Shown here: in pieces, positions 28,161 through 59,010 of the stretch
Position numbering within the stretch: the stretch's first letter is position 1
Layout of the letters: the number at the start of each line of letters is the position of its first letter
Notes under the pieces: generated by a model
What the model was told of the DNA's origin: nothing
Database searches by the model: none
The model's input: the letters and a program-made list of their open reading frames with translations, nothing else
Source of the DNA: an uncultured Phascolarctobacterium sp.
Lineage (GTDB): Bacteria > Bacillota > Negativicutes > Acidaminococcales > Acidaminococcaceae
Direction: 5' to 3'
DNA: 64,000 nt
Assembly: GCA_949299135.1 (NCBI GenBank)
Contig: CASFZG010000001.1
Location: 1-64,000 of the forward strand
Made by a program: the position numbers and the translations under genes

Positions 28161-28365
28161 GCAACTCAGCTGACCTGGTCTTCGCCCCCACACCCGCCTG
28201 CCGGAGGGTTCGCTCCTAAGCCTTGCGCTCCCCACTACTACCCCTCTCGCTTTTCGCGGCAGGACTTACCTCTAAGCTGCGCCGTGCTCACAGTTAATTT
28301 TAACTGCTTACGTGGATCGTTTTGCCCGCAACTGGCATCGACTTGCAACCACAGACCTGAGCTGC
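28161..28365 (-). ncRNA. Structured non-coding RNA of about 205 nt, class unassigned
   Basis: No ORF accounts for this stretch. It has a near-consensus promoter and a terminator of its own. The 5' end GCAGCTCAG pairs with the 3' end CTGAGTTGC (nine pairs), and GGTCT with AGACC inside it. Internal hairpins include CAGTTAA-AA-TTAACTG, CGC-GAAA-AGCG, GGAG..CTCC and CCTGCC/GGCAGG. A closed terminal stem of this size fits 6S-like or raiA-motif-like RNAs, but I cannot confirm either. SRP, tmRNA and RNase P signatures are absent. Confidence 0.6.
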
Positions 28366-40538: not shown

Positions 40539-40569
40539 ATATAAATCCTCCTAAAGGTTATTTGCCAGT

Positions 40570-40705
40570 TCTGCCGCAGCTGTTTTATCCCCCATGTTGC
40601 CACGGGGCTTTGTCAGTCTGCTTACGGCCTGCAGCCGGCCGGGAGGCACCCGCTGACTACTCGATAAACCTCCGCCTCGTCTGCCGCTTTGGCGGCACAT
40701 GCGCT
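40570..40705 (-). promoter_or_regulatory. glmS ribozyme
   Basis: The minus strand matches the ribozyme core: AA|GCGC at the cleavage site (between 40705 and 40704), then GACGAGGCGGAGGTTTATCG, then TCAGCGGGTGCCTCCCGGCCG and GGCCGTAAGC. P1 is the hairpin TGCCGCC-AAAG-CGGCA. Glucosamine-6-phosphate acts as cofactor, so glmS mRNA is cut when product is plentiful. Confidence 0.93.
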
Positions 40706-40720
40706 TGAAATATACATTTT

Positions 40721-51717: not shown

Positions 51718-52683
51718 TTATTTTACAATGTGGCACGCAACAAAATGCCCCGGTGCAACTTCTTTAAGCGCAGGTTTCTGCTCGCGGCAAATGTCCGTAC
51801 AAAATTCGCAGCGGCTGGCAAACGGGCAGCCCTGCGGCAAATCCAGCGGACTTGGCACTTCGCTCTCCAGCGGCTCAATGCGCTCGCCCGGTTTAAAATC
51901 AACCTTAAACACAGCCTTCAGCAGCGCTTTGGTGTACGGGTGCATGCCTTCGGTGCTTATCCTGCGCCCGCCGCCAATATATTCCACCACGTTGCCCAGA
52001 TACATAACGGCAACCTGATGGCACATCAAATCCACAAGCCCGATATCGTGGCAGATAAAAAGGTACGTTATCTCCTTTTCCTTCTGCAAACGCACCAACA
52101 GTTCGCATATTTTTTCCTGCACGGAAACGTCCAGCGCGCTCGTTGCCTCGTCACACACAACAATTTTCGGCTCCAGCGAAAGCGCACGTGCAATACCCAG
52201 ACGCTGACGCTGCCCGCCGCTCATGTTATGCGGGTAACGGTCCATAAATTCCACCGGCAGCTCCACCATTTGCAAAAGCTCTGCCGCCTTGGCGTCCACT
52301 TCGCTCTTTTTAATCAAACCAAAGTTTAAAAGCGGCTCCGTCACAATCTCCTTAACCTTCATTTTGGGATTAAACGCTGCCGCCGGGTCCTGAAACACCA
52401 TCTGTATTTTACGGCGGTTCTGGCGTGCTGCCTCGCCGCGCAGTTTTAAAATATCCTGCCCTTCAAAAATAACCTCGCCGCTTGTGACGGGATGTATTTG
52501 CAGAACAGTGCGCACCAGCGTGCTTTTTCCGCATCCCGATTCGCCGATAATGCCCAGCGTCTGCCCTGCGTAAGCCTTCAGGCTGATGTTGTCGCAGGCG
52601 GTTAAAAACCTACCGCCGTCAACTTCAAACTTTTTGGTTAAATTTTTAATTTCCAATACAACAGGGGGCTGATTAGCGGTCAT
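51718..52683 (-). CDS. Nickel/peptide-type ABC transporter ATPase (NikE/DppF-like)
   Basis: It has 321 residues. Walker A GESGCGKST, signature MSGGQRQRLGIARAL, Walker B IVVCDEATSALD, and the C-terminal oligopeptide-transporter extension with Cys (CPFASRCEFCTDIC..ACHIVK). It overlaps the partner ATPase gene by 11 nt. Last gene of the riboswitch-controlled operon. Confidence 0.92.
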   Translation of the reverse strand: MTANQPPVVLEIKNLTKKFEVDGGRFLTACDNISLKAYAGQTLGIIGESGCGKSTLVRTVLQIHPVTSGEVIFEGQDILKLRGEAARQNRRKIQMVFQDPAAAFNPKMKVKEIVTEPLLNFGLIKKSEVDAKAAELLQMVELPVEFMDRYPHNMSGGQRQRLGIARALSLEPKIVVCDEATSALDVSVQEKICELLVRLQKEKEITYLFICHDIGLVDLMCHQVAVMYLGNVVEYIGGGRRISTEGMHPYTKALLKAVFKVDFKPGERIEPLESEVPSPLDLPQGCPFASRCEFCTDICREQKPALKEVAPGHFVACHIVK

Positions 52684-53464
52684 AATATTTTACCTCCCCC
52701 ACTACCGGCACGGCTGCCAGCAATTCTTTGGTGTAAGCGTCCTGCGGGTCGCTGATAACCTCGCGTTTGCCGCTTTCCACCACGCGCCCGTTTTTCATAA
52801 CAACCAGTTTGTTGGATACATACGACGCCACACCCAAATTATGTGTAACCAGAATTACCGCCACGCCAAACTCGTTGCGGATATCGACAATCTGGCGGAT
52901 AATCTGCGCCTGCGTCGTTACGTCCAACGCGCTTGTAGGTTCATCTGCCAGAAGCAGCTTGGGGCGGAACACCATAGCCATGGCAATGCCCGCGCGCTGG
53001 CGCATGCCGCCCGAAAGCTCAAACGGATAGCTTTGCATAATGCTTTCCGGGTTCGGCAGGCGTACTTTGTTCAGCATGTCTTTCGCCATTTCTGCGGCTT
53101 CGTCCTTTGTTTTTTCCGGCGCATGCGTGCGGATATAATCAACAAACTGCTCGCCTATGCGGCGGATAGGGTTAATCATGTTGCCGCTGTCCTGAAAAAT
53201 CATCGACATCTCTCGCCCGCACAACAGCCGCCACTCTTTCGGCGTATTTTTCAGCATATCACGCCCTTCAAAAATTATGCTGCCGCCGCTTACACGCCCG
53301 CGTCCCGGCAGGCAGCCCATAATGGCACGGATAACCGTGGTTTTGCCGCTGCCGGATTCGCCTACAATCGACATGATTTCGCCGGTATTCAGTTCCAAAT
53401 TCACACCACTTACGGTCAGCTTATCGCCGTAGCTGATGTTTAAATCCTTAACTTCCAGAAGCAT
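52673..53464 (-). CDS. Nickel/peptide-type ABC transporter ATPase (NikD/DppD-like)
   Basis: It has 263 residues. Walker [10 protein letters not shown], signature [15 protein letters not shown], Walker [13 protein letters not shown]. It lacks the long C-terminal extension of typical OppD, as NikD does. Ten nt after the receptor gene. Confidence 0.92.
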
Positions 53465-53474
53465 TGCTTACTCC

Positions 53475-55055
53475 TTATTTGGCAGGTTTAACGTCCTTTG
53501 TCAGCCAGTAATAATCGCACGGCATAATTTTGGCGTTAGCCACTGCCTTACTGCTTATCATGTTGGTTTCCGGGTAGCCGAACACCAGCGAAGCAGCATC
53601 CTCCATAATAATCTTCTGCATATCAATAATCAGCGCACGGCGTTTGGCAGGGTCAAATTCCATTGCCAGCCTGTCGCTTAACGCGTCAAACGCAGGGTTG
53701 CTGTAACCGCTGCCGTTCTGCGGATTGCTGCCGTTAACATTAGTTTTAAGATACTGGTTGATAAATACCTCCGGGTCGCCCGCCGCAAGCGTTAAAATGT
53801 TGGAAATCAACAGGTCATATTCGCCGCGCGTGCCGATACCGTCCAGCACGTTGTAATCCACGTTTTTAAGGTTTATTTTAATGCCAGCCTTCTTGGCGTC
53901 AGCCTGAGTTGCTTCGGCAAACAACGGCAACTCGGCACGTCCGCTGTAAAAGATAAAGTCCAGCTCAAGGTTCTTGCCGTCCTTATCCACATAGCCGTCA
54001 TTATTGGTGTCCTTCCAGCCGGCTTCCGCCAGAAGCTGTTTAGCGCGCTCCACATCGTACTGGTTTTTATCCAGCGCCTTAATTTCATCAAAGCCGTAAT
54101 CTACGGAAGGCGGCAGATACGGGCCGCCCGGCACAAATGTATCTTTAAGCAGCACCTTGCAGTAGGTTTCGCGGTCCAGCGAGCTTAAAAGTGCTTCGCG
54201 CAGACGTTTGTCAGCCATCGGCTTGCCGTCTGCCACGTTAATGCGCGCTAAAACGTCACGCAGGGACGCAATGGTGCTGATGTTGAATTTATCCTTATCC
54301 TCAAAAAGCTGCAAATCGCCCGGCGCGATATTGACAGCCATGTCAATTTCGCCGCTCTGCAAAGCCATGGCGCGGGTGTTCGGGTCGTCGATAGTCGGAA
54401 TTTCCACATGTTTATAAGGCACTTCGCCGTCCCAGTATTTTGGGTTAGCGTCCATAACCGCTTTGGCCTTGCTGTATTCCTTAACAACATACGGGCCGGT
54501 GCAGATAGGACCTTGTGACGCATAGTCGCGGTCAGTCACGCTGGTATCAACAATAATGAACAGCGGGTCGCCCAGCATGCCCGGCAGAGTTGCTACCGGC
54601 GTTTGGGTTTTAATCATTACGTTCTGCCCGTCGGCGGTGATGCTTGCAGGCTCAAACATGGCATGCGCGCGTGCAGCCTTTTCAAAAGTACGTTCAATGG
54701 ATTTTTTAACAGCTTCGCCCGTTACTTTGTTGCCGTTGCTGAACACGGCTTTATCGTTAATTTTAAAAGTCCATGTCAGTTTATCGTCGCTGACGCTCCA
54801 GCTTTCTGCCAGCCAGGGCACGGCGTTCATCTTCTCGTCAAACTTTACAAGGCACTCGCCAAGGCCGTAACGCATTACCACCCAGCCAAAATAATTATCG
54901 GTCGGTTCAAGGCTGTCGGCAAAATTGGTAACACCAAATTTTAATGTGTCGCCGCTTGCCGCCGCGCTTTTATCGTCGCCGCCGCAGCCTGCCGCCGCAA
55001 ACGCCAAAAGCCCCATCATTGCCAGTGCCGCCGTAAGTTTAGCCGCTTTATTCAT
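53475..55055 (-). CDS. Nickel/peptide-type solute-binding lipoprotein (family 5)
   Basis: It has 526 residues: lipoprotein signal (..GLLAFAAAGCGG) and an SBP family 5 fold: GLGECLVKFDEKMNAVPWLAESWSVSDDKLTWTFKI near the N-terminus and RLREALLSSLDRETYC mid-protein. Family members bind peptides, nickel-chelates or heme. The cobalamin riboswitch ahead of the operon argues for cobalt, nickel-type metal chelate or a corrinoid precursor; the ligand cannot be read directly. Confidence 0.88.
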   Translation of the reverse strand: MNKAAKLTAALAMMGLLAFAAAGCGGDDKSAAASGDTLKFGVTNFADSLEPTDNYFGWVVMRYGLGECLVKFDEKMNAVPWLAESWSVSDDKLTWTFKINDKAVFSNGNKVTGEAVKKSIERTFEKAARAHAMFEPASITADGQNVMIKTQTPVATLPGMLGDPLFIIVDTSVTDRDYASQGPICTGPYVVKEYSKAKAVMDANPKYWDGEVPYKHVEIPTIDDPNTRAMALQSGEIDMAVNIAPGDLQLFEDKDKFNISTIASLRDVLARINVADGKPMADKRLREALLSSLDRETYCKVLLKDTFVPGGPYLPPSVDYGFDEIKALDKNQYDVERAKQLLAEAGWKDTNNDGYVDKDGKNLELDFIFYSGRAELPLFAEATQADAKKAGIKINLKNVDYNVLDGIGTRGEYDLLISNILTLAAGDPEVFINQYLKTNVNGSNPQNGSGYSNPAFDALSDRLAMEFDPAKRRALIIDMQKIIMEDAASLVFGYPETNMISSKAVANAKIMPCDYYWLTKDVKPAK

Positions 55056-55079
55056 AAATCCATCTTCCTCTCTAAAACC

Positions 55080-55910
55080 CTATTCTTCCTGCCGCGGGTC
55101 CAGCACATCGCGCAGTGCGTCGCCCCACAGGTTAAAAATTACAACCGTTATAAAAATGGCAAGCCCCGGGAAAATCATCAGCCAAGGCGCAGTTTGCAGC
55201 TGCTGCCTGCCTTCGTTAAGCATTAAGCCCCATTCGGGCGCAGGCGGCTGCGAGCCAAAGCCCAGAAACGAAAGCCCTGCCAGTTCCATCATCATCGCAC
55301 CGATATCGGACGCCGCCGTAATAACCATCAGCGGCAAAATATTCGGCAAAATATGTTTCCATAATATATGTGTTGAAGTGCCGCCGTTAACGATGGCTGC
55401 TTCGACAAAATCACGTTTTTTAACTTTTAAAACCATGCTGCGTGCCAGGCGCGCGTACTTCGTCCACGTTACAACCGTCAGCGCAATAATAGCGTTAATC
55501 AGGCTGCCGCCGAGTATGCCCGCAATGGCAATCGCTAAAATCATGCCCGGGAAGGAAATCATCATATCCGCCACGCGCATGATAACAACATCAACCTTGC
55601 CGCCAAAGTAACCGGCAAGCACGCCCAGCGTAGTGCCGATAACAAAAATTACCACTACCAACAGCAGTACGCTGCTTAAAGAATACGCCGCGCCATACAA
55701 AACACGGCTGAAATTATCGCGCCCCAGCTTATCCGTACCAAACCAGTGGTCGGCATTGGGCGCAAGGTAAGCGTTCTGCATCGTTGCCTCCAGCGGGTCA
55801 TAAGGCGCAATTAACGGCGCTGCCAGCGCGACGGCAATTAGCAGCAGCACAAAAAAGCTGGTTACGGCAAAGGCACGGTTGGTTTTAAGCCCATTGATAA
55901 GTGTCTGCAT
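55080..55910 (-). CDS. Nickel/peptide-type ABC permease (NikC/DppC-like)
   Basis: It has 276 residues and about six membrane helices. Typical LAPYDP and HWFGTDKLGRDNFSRVLYGA near the N-terminus and an EAA loop around FVEAAIVNGGTSTHILWKHILPNI. One nt after the partner permease. Confidence 0.93.
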   Translation of the reverse strand: MQTLINGLKTNRAFAVTSFFVLLLIAVALAAPLIAPYDPLEATMQNAYLAPNADHWFGTDKLGRDNFSRVLYGAAYSLSSVLLLVVVIFVIGTTLGVLAGYFGGKVDVVIMRVADMMISFPGMILAIAIAGILGGSLINAIIALTVVTWTKYARLARSMVLKVKKRDFVEAAIVNGGTSTHILWKHILPNILPLMVITAASDIGAMMMELAGLSFLGFGSQPPAPEWGLMLNEGRQQLQTAPWLMIFPGLAIFITVVIFNLWGDALRDVLDPRQEE

Positions 55911-55911
55911 G

Positions 55912-56856
55912 TTACCTGCCTGCCTTTCTTAAGCGCGGGTCAAGATGGTTGTAGGAAGCGTCGATGATAAGGTTAATTACCATGTACATCAGCGCAATCC
56001 ACAGCACAATGCCCTGCACCAGCTGAAAATCGCGGTAAATAATGCTTTGCACCGCAAGGTAACCCAGCCCCGGCCATGAAAATACAATTTCCACAACGGC
56101 CGCACCGCCCAGCAGATTGCCGAAGGAAAGTCCGAGCAGCGTAATCAGCGGCAGCATAGCGTTGGGCAGAACTTCTTTCCATAAAATATGGCTTTCGCTC
56201 ATGCCGCGCGCACGCGCACCAACAACATAATCCTGGTTCAGTTCTTCCAGCACGGCGGTACGCACCTGCCGCGTAAATTTGGACGCCATAACAATACCCA
56301 GCGTCAGCGCCGGTAAAATTAAAGTTTCAAGGCTTACGCGCCCGCCGACAATCGGCAGAAGCCGCAGTTTTAAACCGAAAATCCACAAAAGCATTAAGCC
56401 CATCCAAAAGTTAGGGACGGAAACGCCGACGAAGGTTAAGCCGCGCACAACGTAATCGAACACGCTGCCATGCTTAACGGCGCTGTAAATGCCAGCCGGT
56501 ATGGAAACCACCAGCATGAACACCGTCGAAGCCATCGCCAGTATCACCGTAGCTGGCAGGCTTTCCATAAGCTGCTCCACCACAGGCTTTTTAACCATAT
56601 AGGAAAAGCCAAAATCGCCCTGTACGGCACGCCCCAGCCAGTCCAGATACTGGAAAATAAACGGTTTATCCAGCCCCAGCTCATGGCGCAGCGCGTCAAT
56701 TTCCTGCTGGCTGACGATAATATCCTCGTTGCCAGCAATCATCTGGCGCACCGGGTCGCCCGGCGACAGCATAACCAGCGCAAAGGTTATAAAGCTGATG
56801 CCCAGAAGGACAACCACTATCTGCGCTATGCGGCTTAATAATTGCTTATTAGTCAC
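55912..56856 (-). CDS. Nickel/peptide-type ABC permease (NikB/DppB-like)
   Basis: It has 314 residues from GTG 56856 (TTG 56862 is possible). N-terminal LLGISFITFALVMLSPGDPV and the EAA loop QDYVVGARARGMSESHILWKEVLPNAMLP are family marks; about six membrane helices. First gene behind cobalamin riboswitch 1. Confidence 0.92.
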   Translation of the reverse strand: MTNKQLLSRIAQIVVVLLGISFITFALVMLSPGDPVRQMIAGNEDIIVSQQEIDALRHELGLDKPFIFQYLDWLGRAVQGDFGFSYMVKKPVVEQLMESLPATVILAMASTVFMLVVSIPAGIYSAVKHGSVFDYVVRGLTFVGVSVPNFWMGLMLLWIFGLKLRLLPIVGGRVSLETLILPALTLGIVMASKFTRQVRTAVLEELNQDYVVGARARGMSESHILWKEVLPNAMLPLITLLGLSFGNLLGGAAVVEIVFSWPGLGYLAVQSIIYRDFQLVQGIVLWIALMYMVINLIIDASYNHLDPRLRKAGR

Positions 56857-56897
56857 AACCAAACATCTCCATCACAAACAAGTCCGTAAACACAAAA

Positions 56898-56959: not shown

Positions 56960-57109
56960 CCTCGCCGTCACCCGCAGCACCGGAAAGCGTTAAAGGCTGC
57001 GCTCTGACTTACACCTGCGTGCTTACAGTGGCGTGACCGTGCCGGATTTGCACCGGCTTCCCTAATTTACCCCTCGCGGGCACCTTTAACAACGTTCTTC
57101 AGTTATCAT
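56960..57109 (-). promoter_or_regulatory. Cobalamin riboswitch 1 (ABC operon)
   Basis: The minus strand carries the core GGGAAGCCGGTGCAAATCCG, then GCACGGTCACGCCACTGTAAGC and AGGTGTAAGTCAG: the GGGAA..GGTG.AAATCC, GCCACTG and late B12-box elements in order. Expected to shut the downstream transporter when adenosylcobalamin or another corrinoid is abundant. Confidence 0.93.
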
Positions 57110-57115
57110 AGACTT

Positions 57116-57144
57116 ATTGTAGCACTAATTCCTATTAAAGTAAA
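57116..57144 (-). promoter_or_regulatory. Promoter ahead of riboswitch 1
   Basis: TTTACT (57144-57139), 17 nt, TACAAT (57121-57116). Shares an AGTGCTA segment ahead of the -10 with the promoter of riboswitch 2. Confidence 0.7.
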
Positions 57145-57175
57145 TAATTTTCTTGTAAAATATTTCAATTAGTAA

Positions 57176-57202
57176 TTTATACGGTATACCCGTATGGGTA
57201 TA
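57176..57202. promoter_or_regulatory. Shared 27-bp upstream element, copy 1
   Basis: Plus strand: TTTATAC, 2 nt, TATAC, 2 nt, GTATGGGTATA; 23 of 27 positions match copy 2 at 58984-59010. It sits 31 nt above the -35 box. In this copy GGTATACCC-GTAT-GGGTATACC is also a perfect inverted repeat (57183-57204). Confidence 0.75.
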
Positions 57203-57218
57203 CCTGCCGTAAAATGCA

Positions 57219-57248
57219 AAAAGCCGCCGCGGGCATGCGGGGCTTTCT
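57219..57248 (-). terminator. Terminator of the second OmpM gene
   Basis: AGCC.CGC and GCG.GGCT with a short loop, followed by TTTTTGC on the minus strand. Confidence 0.65.
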
Positions 57249-57296
57249 GCAACAGTAGTAAGAAATTAAGCAGTAATCAAAATTAAACATTAAATT

Positions 57297-58544
57297 TTAG
57301 AACATAAACTGTAAACGGCTCCAGATAACTCTGTCATCAAGGCCGCTTTCCTTGCCTTCAAGGTCGTAGTAATGCAGCTGGTAAACCATGTTTTTGGCAA
57401 CTGTTATACCGCCGCCGACCATGTAGCCTTTAAAGCCTTCTTTGGCAAACAAATCCCAGTCGCCGGTAAACATGGTGTGCGCAACCGTTGTACCCACACC
57501 CTGATTGTAATAATTAGCAAACAAACCATAGCTGCCGGGCTTGTTTTTATCAGCACCCTTGTAGTTAAGGCCGATAACATAACCGTCATCATCCGCACCG
57601 GGCGCAACACCCACAGCTTTATCGTTGTCGGAATTTAAATAAGTTGCTGCCAGCTGAACATCGCCAAAATTATATTTAGCGCTTACGTTCCATACGGAAT
57701 TATTGCCGCCTTCCGCCGTCGGCACAAATTGGGTTAAAGTCATGGCGTTATCAGCAGCGGCGTCTTTAAATTCATCATAACCTGCCGAAAGGCTTAAATC
57801 ACCAAGCCTGCCGCTGACTTCCGCACCCCACATTTTATCGTAACCGTAATTGGTCGGCTTGCCGTAATAAGCGCTTACTTTTACATCCTTGCCATAGCTT
57901 GCGCGGATAAACTCCGCGGTGTCATCATACAAATAACCGTTGGCAAGGTAATGGTCGCTCTTACCGGCGATAACTTTTAAACCGCCCAGCTTACCGGATA
58001 CATAAGCCTGATTCAGGCTCAAATCATCGTTACCTTTGACATCGGCAAGGTTCTGGTCGTTCTGCAAACGCCCGGTGTAGCTCCAGTCCTCGTTAATCTG
58101 CCCGTTAACGAACAAACGGGTACGCAAGCGGTGTTTGGCAACCTTGCCCTGTTTCGGTGCCAATTTTTTGTAATCACCGCTGCGGTCGCCATATTCGTAA
58201 CGTACCTGCCCGGTAATTTTTACATTATCGTCTTTGTTTTCGAGCTGTGCTACACGCACGCCAAGGCTGTCCAGCTCACCGGCAAATTCTGCTGCCAGCT
58301 TGTCAACATTTGCACCCTTCGCCATTGCTTTGGCAACAATCTGCGCCACTTCATAGCGGGTCATCAGCCTGTCGCCGCCGTAAGTGCCGTCAGGGTAACC
58401 GTCCACCACGCCCTCTGCCGCAAGCTTGCTGACAGCGTCATACGCCCAGTGTCCTTGCGGCACATCACTGAACGGATTGGCTGCATACGCCGACGCCGTC
58501 ACGCCCAGCGCTATCACCGCCGCAAGCACTAAAGATTTTTTCAT
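57297..58544 (-). CDS. OmpM-type porin with SLH domain, cobalamin-riboswitch controlled
   Basis: It has 415 residues from ATG 58544, nine nt after AGGAGG. Signal peptide (MKKSLVLAAVIALGVTASAYA), SLH domain and coiled stalk are nearly identical to the copy at 37318. The barrel (about 110-415) has diverged and ends RLQFMF. Unlike the first copy, it lies behind a cobalamin riboswitch and terminator. This points to selective corrinoid or cobalt passage across the outer membrane, the job done by BtuB in proteobacteria; no plug domain or TonB box is visible. Function is inference from control. Confidence 0.92.
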   Translation of the reverse strand: MKKSLVLAAVIALGVTASAYAANPFSDVPQGHWAYDAVSKLAAEGVVDGYPDGTYGGDRLMTRYEVAQIVAKAMAKGANVDKLAAEFAGELDSLGVRVAQLENKDDNVKITGQVRYEYGDRSGDYKKLAPKQGKVAKHRLRTRLFVNGQINEDWSYTGRLQNDQNLADVKGNDDLSLNQAYVSGKLGGLKVIAGKSDHYLANGYLYDDTAEFIRASYGKDVKVSAYYGKPTNYGYDKMWGAEVSGRLGDLSLSAGYDEFKDAAADNAMTLTQFVPTAEGGNNSVWNVSAKYNFGDVQLAATYLNSDNDKAVGVAPGADDDGYVIGLNYKGADKNKPGSYGLFANYYNQGVGTTVAHTMFTGDWDLFAKEGFKGYMVGGGITVAKNMVYQLHYYDLEGKESGLDDRVIWSRLQFMF

Positions 58545-58676
58545 TTTACCATGCCTCCTGTCACAAATAAACGGCTGTGCCATTTAAAAGTAAAATCCGC
58601 GGCAGGCGGCTTAAACCTGCCGCAATTAAACAGCGCGCACTGCAAACTGCGGGCACCGGCAAAATGAACAAACCTA

Positions 58677-58711
58677 ATAAAAAACCGCTTCGGTTATACT
58701 CCGAAACGGTA
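58677..58711 (-). terminator. Riboswitch 2 terminator
   Basis: ACCGTTTCGG, 7-nt loop, CCGAAGCGGT, TTTTTT on the minus strand: ten pairs, well placed as the off-state of the riboswitch. Confidence 0.85.
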
Positions 58712-58740
58712 AAAAACATATATATCCGGCCTTATGCCGG

Positions 58741-58917
58741 AATGTCAATTACCCGTCTCCCGCAGGTTAAGCTGCAATGCTTATGTACAGCAACTTGCTG
58801 GCTTTGGGCTTTACAGGGGTAAAAGACTTGCAAAGAATAAGTTAAGCGCCCTTACAGCGGCGGGACCGCACCGGACTTGCACCGGTTAACATTACTGTAC
58901 ATGCTGTATTAAGTTAT
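58741..58917 (-). promoter_or_regulatory. Cobalamin riboswitch 2 (OmpM porin)
   Basis: Minus strand core: AACCGGTGCAAGTCCGGTGC, GGTCCCGCCGCTGTAAGGG, and a later CAGCTTAACCTGCGGGAGAC segment. The GCCACTG box reads GCCGCTG and GGGAA is degraded, otherwise the order is as expected. Followed by an intrinsic terminator, then the OmpM leader. Confidence 0.87.
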
Positions 58918-58923
58918 GCCATT

Positions 58924-58952
58924 ATATTAGCACTTTTTATTATTAGTGTCAA
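58924..58952 (-). promoter_or_regulatory. Promoter ahead of riboswitch 2
   Basis: Perfect TTGACA (58952-58947), 17 nt, TAATAT (58929-58924). Confidence 0.8.
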
Positions 58953-58983
58953 TAATTATTTATTTTTAATTCTTATTTAAATT

Positions 58984-59010
58984 TTTATACTATATACAGG
59001 TATGGGTATA
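58984..59010. promoter_or_regulatory. Shared 27-bp upstream element, copy 2
   Basis: Same TTTATAC-n2-TATAC-n2-GTATGGGTATA pattern as copy 1, again exactly 31 nt above the -35 box (about -67 to -93). Probably a transcription factor site. Confidence 0.75.

Follow-up and report, generated by a model that had tools for sequence, protein, structure and literature searches.

A putative CsoR-family operator at a fixed distance upstream of cobalamin-riboswitch promoters in Phascolarctobacterium

Two 27-bp elements lie upstream of the cobalamin-riboswitch promoters of a nik-type importer operon and an outer membrane porin gene in an uncultured Phascolarctobacterium sp., a gut bacterium. We consider it probable that they are operators of the single CsoR/RcnR-family sensor encoded by this genome, that the apoprotein activates uptake genes from this upstream position, and that the riboswitch serves as a second brake. 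Cobalt uptake and B12 genes are usually regarded as being governed chiefly by cobalamin riboswitches, and it is for inducing metal export that the CsoR family is best known. The whole stretch of DNA that was analyzed, 64 kb in length, is referred to here as the window, and G000 denotes the genome from which it comes.

Table 1. Coordinates of the promoter elements, genes, and predicted regulator (positions are those of the window unless a contig is given)
Feature	Position	Strand	Remarks
CsoR-type operator (putative), nik promoter	57176..57202	(-)	sense TATACCCATACGGGTATACCGTATAAA; centre ~ -84.5
Core of the nik element, ATACCCATACGGGTAT	57186-57201	(-)	
AT-rich gap, 31 nt, nik promoter	57145..57175	(-)	length conserved, sequence unlike porin gap
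nik core promoter, TTTACT-17-TACAAT	57116..57144	(-)	-35 TTTACT 57144-57139, -10 TACAAT 57121-57116
nik cobalamin riboswitch (RF00174)	56978..57102	(-)	50.2 bits
nik-type (Ni/Co) ABC importer operon	51718..56862	(-)	
nik operon permeases	55912-56862 and 55080-55910	(-)	
nik operon substrate-binding lipoprotein	53475-55055	(-)	
nik operon ATPases	52673-53464 and 51718-52683	(-)	
Second CsoR-type operator (putative), SLH-porin promoter	58984..59010	(-)	sense TATACCCATACCTGTATATAGTATAAA
AT-rich gap, 31 nt, porin promoter	58953..58983	(-)	
Porin core promoter, TTGACA-17-TAATAT	58924..58952	(-)	-35 TTGACA 58952-58947, -10 TAATAT 58929-58924
Porin cobalamin riboswitch (RF00174)	58772..58914	(-)	32.3 bits
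Outer membrane porin, one SLH domain	57297..58583	(-)	Pfam SLH + Porin_4
CsoR of the window's genome	G000:C5:12348-12584		outside the window

In pairwise comparison the two elements are identical at 23 of 27 bases, and their pattern occurs exactly twice in the window, compared with 0 occurrences expected from 100 dinucleotide shuffles. On the sense (minus) strand, 31 nt separate the element from the -35 box at both promoters, and both have a 17-nt spacer between the -35 and -10 boxes; the match, the gap, and the spacers described in an earlier note on this DNA are all borne out by the sequence. The core has the form of a type 2 operator of the CsoR/RcnR family, a palindrome, ATACC(C)-N4-(G)GGTAT, whose AT-rich arms enclose short G/C tracts; ATACCCATACGGGTAT is a full match to it, and the porin copy has two mismatches relative to the nik core. 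Both riboswitches score above the Rfam gathering cut-off for RF00174 (31.5 bits); the window also carries a raiA RNA (28161-28365, 198 bits) and a glmS ribozyme (40566-40716, 81 bits). The nik operon includes an Opp2B nickel permease above the NCBIfam cut-off and a NikA-type binding protein below it, and the true start of the porin is probably the ATG of MKKSLV. The promoter spacers themselves (57122-57138 and 58930-58946, and also those at L304, L348, L349, L351, L361, and L362) have a common motif, approximately TTAWTAGKAATNAGTGC, the core of which, TTA[AT]TAG[GT]AAT, is exact in 6 of 55 cobalamin-riboswitch promoters, some of which may be related, versus 0.1 in shuffles; this motif occurs also in genera without a CsoR-type site and may be the site of a second factor.

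The element is present in all six Phascolarctobacterium-type genomes, each from a different species, that made up our genus set. It stands at every nik-type cobalamin-riboswitch promoter found in these species and at nearly every one found for SLH porins, and the gap to the -35 box is 31 nt in 14 of the 15 riboswitch-promoter copies and 30 nt in the remaining one. This genus-wide retention supports the earlier proposal that selection acts on an operator lying at about -67 to -93; the element was neither unconserved in close relatives nor scattered at random through the genomes, the outcomes that the earlier note had named as counting against such a site. A whole-genome search of G000 revealed a third copy, again 31 nt above the -35 box of a cobalamin-riboswitch promoter, which heads cbiK together with a B12/heme/siderophore-type ABC transporter, and a fourth, inverted copy above an AstE/aspartoacylase-like gene without a riboswitch. 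The core ATACCCATACGGGTAT is found upstream of this riboswitch-less gene in all six genomes, 38 nt above the -35 box in the five promoters measured. The full 25-mer had no convincing copy in 55 other genomes of the class, and weak genomic matches (three mismatches, or single hits in other genera) were dropped, as most lay inside coding sequence. A further imperfect CsoR-like palindrome, ATACCCATACCCGTAT, lies at G000:C2:86187-86202, approximately 50 bp upstream of the cbiK element, and is also present in G002.

The equal placing of the elements is neither chance nor the product of simple whole-promoter duplication. Within the window's genome, the nik and porin gaps are identical at 15 of 31 positions, against 13.6 expected (p = 0.35; one genome), in keeping with their earlier description as AT-rich but different, and the leaders just past the -10 box are at chance identity; the porin promoter of another genome of the genus, G001, has yet another, unrelated gap sequence that is again 31 nt in length. 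The length of the gap is therefore kept while its sequence differs. The blocks from the -35 to the -10 box, a likeness missed by the earlier note, are identical at 20 of 29 positions. Duplication of the whole promoter, which that note had set against selection, is, given the chance identity of gap and leader, not supported for nik and porin, but it holds for the porin and the cbiK of G000, which have in common both the gap (23 of 31 positions, p = 0.0008) and the leader and so constitute a real duplication. It could be supposed from this pair, and from the core promoters of paralogues, which are identical at 20 to 28 of 29 positions, that element and promoter form one duplicated regulatory cassette whose equal spacing reflects common descent and not selection; such a history is improbable, as nik and porin are alike in element and core promoter but at chance in gap and leader, and as, at the AstE-like gene, the operator is combined with a different promoter and a riboswitch is lacking. 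Beside a MATE gene common to these genomes, the element and its riboswitch are followed by cbiK in G000 (L006 6234-6412; G000:C2:86233) but by a small MAEDF gene and a porin in G002 and G004 (L048, L129), as if a deletion had put the cbiK of G000 under the control unit of the porin.

Each of the six genomes encodes exactly one member of the CsoR/RcnR family (PF02583); in G000 the gene lies at G000:C5:12348-12584, and the earlier note was correct in placing the regulator outside the window. We searched 84,980 species genomes for the palindrome class TATACCCMTABGGGTATA and found no fewer than 120 sites in at least 118 stretches. Among the matches listed, 40 of 120 18-mers were situated within 500 bp of a CsoR-family gene, compared with 7.5% of random positions in the same stretches, 43 of 120 were within 500 bp of a P-type ATPase, and 58 of 120 were near one or the other. 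Among the matches listed, most operator-adjacent CsoRs belong to a single type, NLHRRLKKIIGQ...DEDVPCEDIL...EGHIxHCV, which differs little from the genus protein, and some have the exact TATACCCATACGGGTATA. In a phylogenetic tree, the genus CsoR falls into a clade of 38 rows (support 100/99) that contains 25 operator-adjacent CsoRs from other bacteria; this C-H-C clade is apart both from the clade with Bacillus subtilis CsoR and from a sulfur-sensor-like group, likewise found beside such sites, which from its neighboring genes we read as CstR-like. By its match to the operators of the genus CsoR's clade, the 27-bp element is a predicted operator of the CsoR family, and we infer that it is bound by the genus's own CsoR. 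The earlier suggestion of a metal-sensor-like palindrome therefore holds for CsoR and fails for NikR, the sensor that had been named: the NikR_C domain (PF08753) was detected in none of the six genus genomes, whereas the same search was positive in five control genomes. NikR would likewise control nik genes, and the TATAC and GTATA half sites loosely recall its operator, GTATGA-N16-TCATAC (PMC7055735), but the operator differs and the 18-mer class is, among the matches listed, tied to CsoR genes in public genomes. We have rejected NikR on these grounds and regard it, or another unrelated factor, as very improbable.

Two further arrangements bear on the identity of the regulator. Between csoR and a P1B-ATPase gene of G001, just after the ATPase promoter, is TATACCCATAGGGGTATA, which departs from the core by one base, and in four genomes of g13, another genus of the same family, two tandem copies 36 to 38 bp apart, including the exact ATACCCATACGGGTAT, flank the orthologous csoR, with the first copy filling the spacer of a TTGACA-17-TATAAT promoter. 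These are standard repressor positions and tie the sequence of the element to the genus CsoR. The g13 tandem sites (L300 6691-6890, L301, L302, and L303) lead to a reading frame of 25 to 27 amino acids, MKMSFSKKYGFEYDNSFMFWGFLWLMK and relatives, that is conserved in the four genomes.

The shape of the operator is established: published CsoR operators, such as ATATACCCCTNAGGGGTATAT, look alike (PMC3902906), and the type 2 operators of Streptomyces lividans CsoR (PMC3902906) likewise comprise a ATATACCCC...GGGGTATAT palindrome, a TAC/GTA inverted repeat, and two short G/C tracts, although their spacing is TAC-N9-GTA instead of the TAC-N8-GTA seen here and the extra GTATA half site on the right is peculiar, in this comparison, to the Phascolarctobacterium elements. 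A meta-regulon of csoR and P-type ATPases with dual sites has been described for gut Firmicutes and read as copper homeostasis (PMC4938975); it has in common with our data a C-H-C CsoR, a P-type ATPase neighbor, CsoR-type palindromes, and tandem sites 36 to 38 bp apart, as in g13. Cobalt and nickel are nowhere mentioned in the text of that paper, whereas here the operator stands on cobalt and B12 acquisition genes. Our literature search found no paper linking CsoR to cobalamin-riboswitch promoters.

With the start site assumed from the -10 box, the center of the element lies at -84.5 in the riboswitch promoters and at -81.5 in those of the AstE-like gene. InrS, a member of the CsoR/RcnR family, binds upstream of the nik operon and enhances nik expression, according to a review (PMC7055735). 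Upstream positions favor activation and, together with this precedent, make upstream activation by apo-CsoR the best reading; by analogy with the cyanobacterial protein, activation of uptake from about -84 is likely. The site, its spacing, its conservation, the putative regulon, and the match to operators of the CsoR clade are all matters of sequence, and the mechanism that we suggest is built upon them. The genus CsoR belongs to a distinct C-H-C clade whose members elsewhere are usually partnered by the gene for a P1B-type metal-exporting ATPase, and in this genus the same operator appears to have been placed also on genes for the acquisition of cobalt (or nickel), namely, the nik-type importer, the SLH porins, and the AstE-like hydrolase and, in the window's genome, on cbiK. 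When its ligand is scarce, apo-CsoR would bind and, from its upstream position, assist RNA polymerase in initiation; with ample ligand, CsoR would dissociate and uptake would fall; and when B12 is already sufficient, the cobalamin riboswitch would stop the nik and porin transcripts. Metal supply would in this way probably set transcription before B12 checks the RNA, and the data support the earlier contention that a DNA-level layer is superimposed on riboswitch control.

In favor of this scheme, the sites occur only at uptake-type genes and are absent from the cobU, cbiD, and permease cobalamin riboswitches of the same genus genomes. Against it stand the AstE sites, which are 3 bp out of phase with the riboswitch promoters, the cbiK riboswitch promoter of G001, which is without the element, and a locus of Veillonella rogosae in which the variant TATACCCATAGGGGTATA (L179 4775-4792) occupies a repressing position just below the promoter of a nik-type substrate-binding protein gene; no cobalamin riboswitch was found at this locus. 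The activator site of the earlier note is plausible by position and precedent, although related sites elsewhere are in repressor positions. CsoR-family proteins are generally repressors, and the same CsoR could repress from upstream, for example, by covering the very AT-rich 31-nt gap as a UP-like region, until a ligand, either a toxic metal or a reactive sulfur species, displaces it, whereupon cobalt uptake would increase to counter mismetallation or sulfide trapping. The repressor-position sites of G001, the g13 genomes, and Veillonella would accord with such a scheme, but a position kept exactly, 49 nt above the -35 box, in two promoter classes with unrelated gaps is more typical of an activator, and InrS, a known relative, enhances nik expression; we consider upstream repression rather unlikely. 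It is scarcely credible that the element instead overlaps a second, upstream promoter, with GTATAAA as its -10 box, and that the palindrome represses only that promoter: most nik and porin copies retain this right end, but no good -35 box is in register by eye, the sequence is degenerate in the G001 porin and G000 cbiK copies, and the AstE copies have their extra half site on the far side, or, in G001 and G005, none.

The C-H-C ligands of the genus CsoR, C34, H59, and C63, would be compatible with Cu(I) or with Ni, the latter as in InrS; in alignments, the positions of Tyr35 and Glu81, which belong to the second shell in Cu-sensing CsoR, are occupied instead by Pro33 or Ala33 and by Asn, so the metal is not readable from the protein sequence. 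CstR-type sulfur sensors use similar operators, and the ligand therefore need not be a metal. The Ni sensor InrS of Synechocystis has the C-H-C metal-site residues in common with the genus CsoR, and NikR is absent from its genome as it is from that of the window; the candidate operator is, moreover, found both at nik (six species) and at an exporter gene (the P1B-ATPase, within the genus only in G001), a dual-sensor layout resembling that of InrS. The genus CsoR is nevertheless closer to the Geobacillus-type CsoR 4m1p (63.5 bits) than to InrS (49.9 bits), and, unlike those of InrS, its predicted target promoters also include ones with cobalamin riboswitches, and porins and the AstE-like hydrolase are among the putative targets.

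In G025 (genus g8), a variant CsoR-type operator centered at -42.5 lies directly against the -35 box of the nik riboswitch promoter; the completeness of this assembly is 73%, and it was only in the sister species, G012, that the clade's CsoR was observed. A CsoR-type operator is missing from six nik riboswitch promoters of genera g10, g16, and g17, and five of these six genomes are without a CsoR gene, the sixth (G021) having only one from outside the clade. In g8, g10, g16, and g17 (L372-L399), the AstE-like gene lies close to the nik riboswitch or operon or is divergent from it, so the operator common to both in the window's genus links genes that are associated elsewhere; among the AstE-like promoters scanned, including those of sister genera, the operator was found only in the window's genus. 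The hydrolase (L007 6255-7220) possibly acts on a metal carrier.

A broader scheme, which we advance tentatively and rate as somewhat short of probable, is that one CsoR-family sensor, acting at a fixed upstream site, activates a whole cobalt acquisition regulon (importer, outer membrane porins, hydrolase, and, in one genome, cobalt chelatase) and represses export, so that cobalt status would gate transcription and B12 would gate the RNA, together forming an AND gate. The elements offer a concrete and testable instance in which a CsoR-family protein may serve metal acquisition; they would enlarge the cobalt supply set of gut bacteria by porins and an AstE-like hydrolase, and they call into question the habit of naming every C-H-C CsoR a copper sensor.
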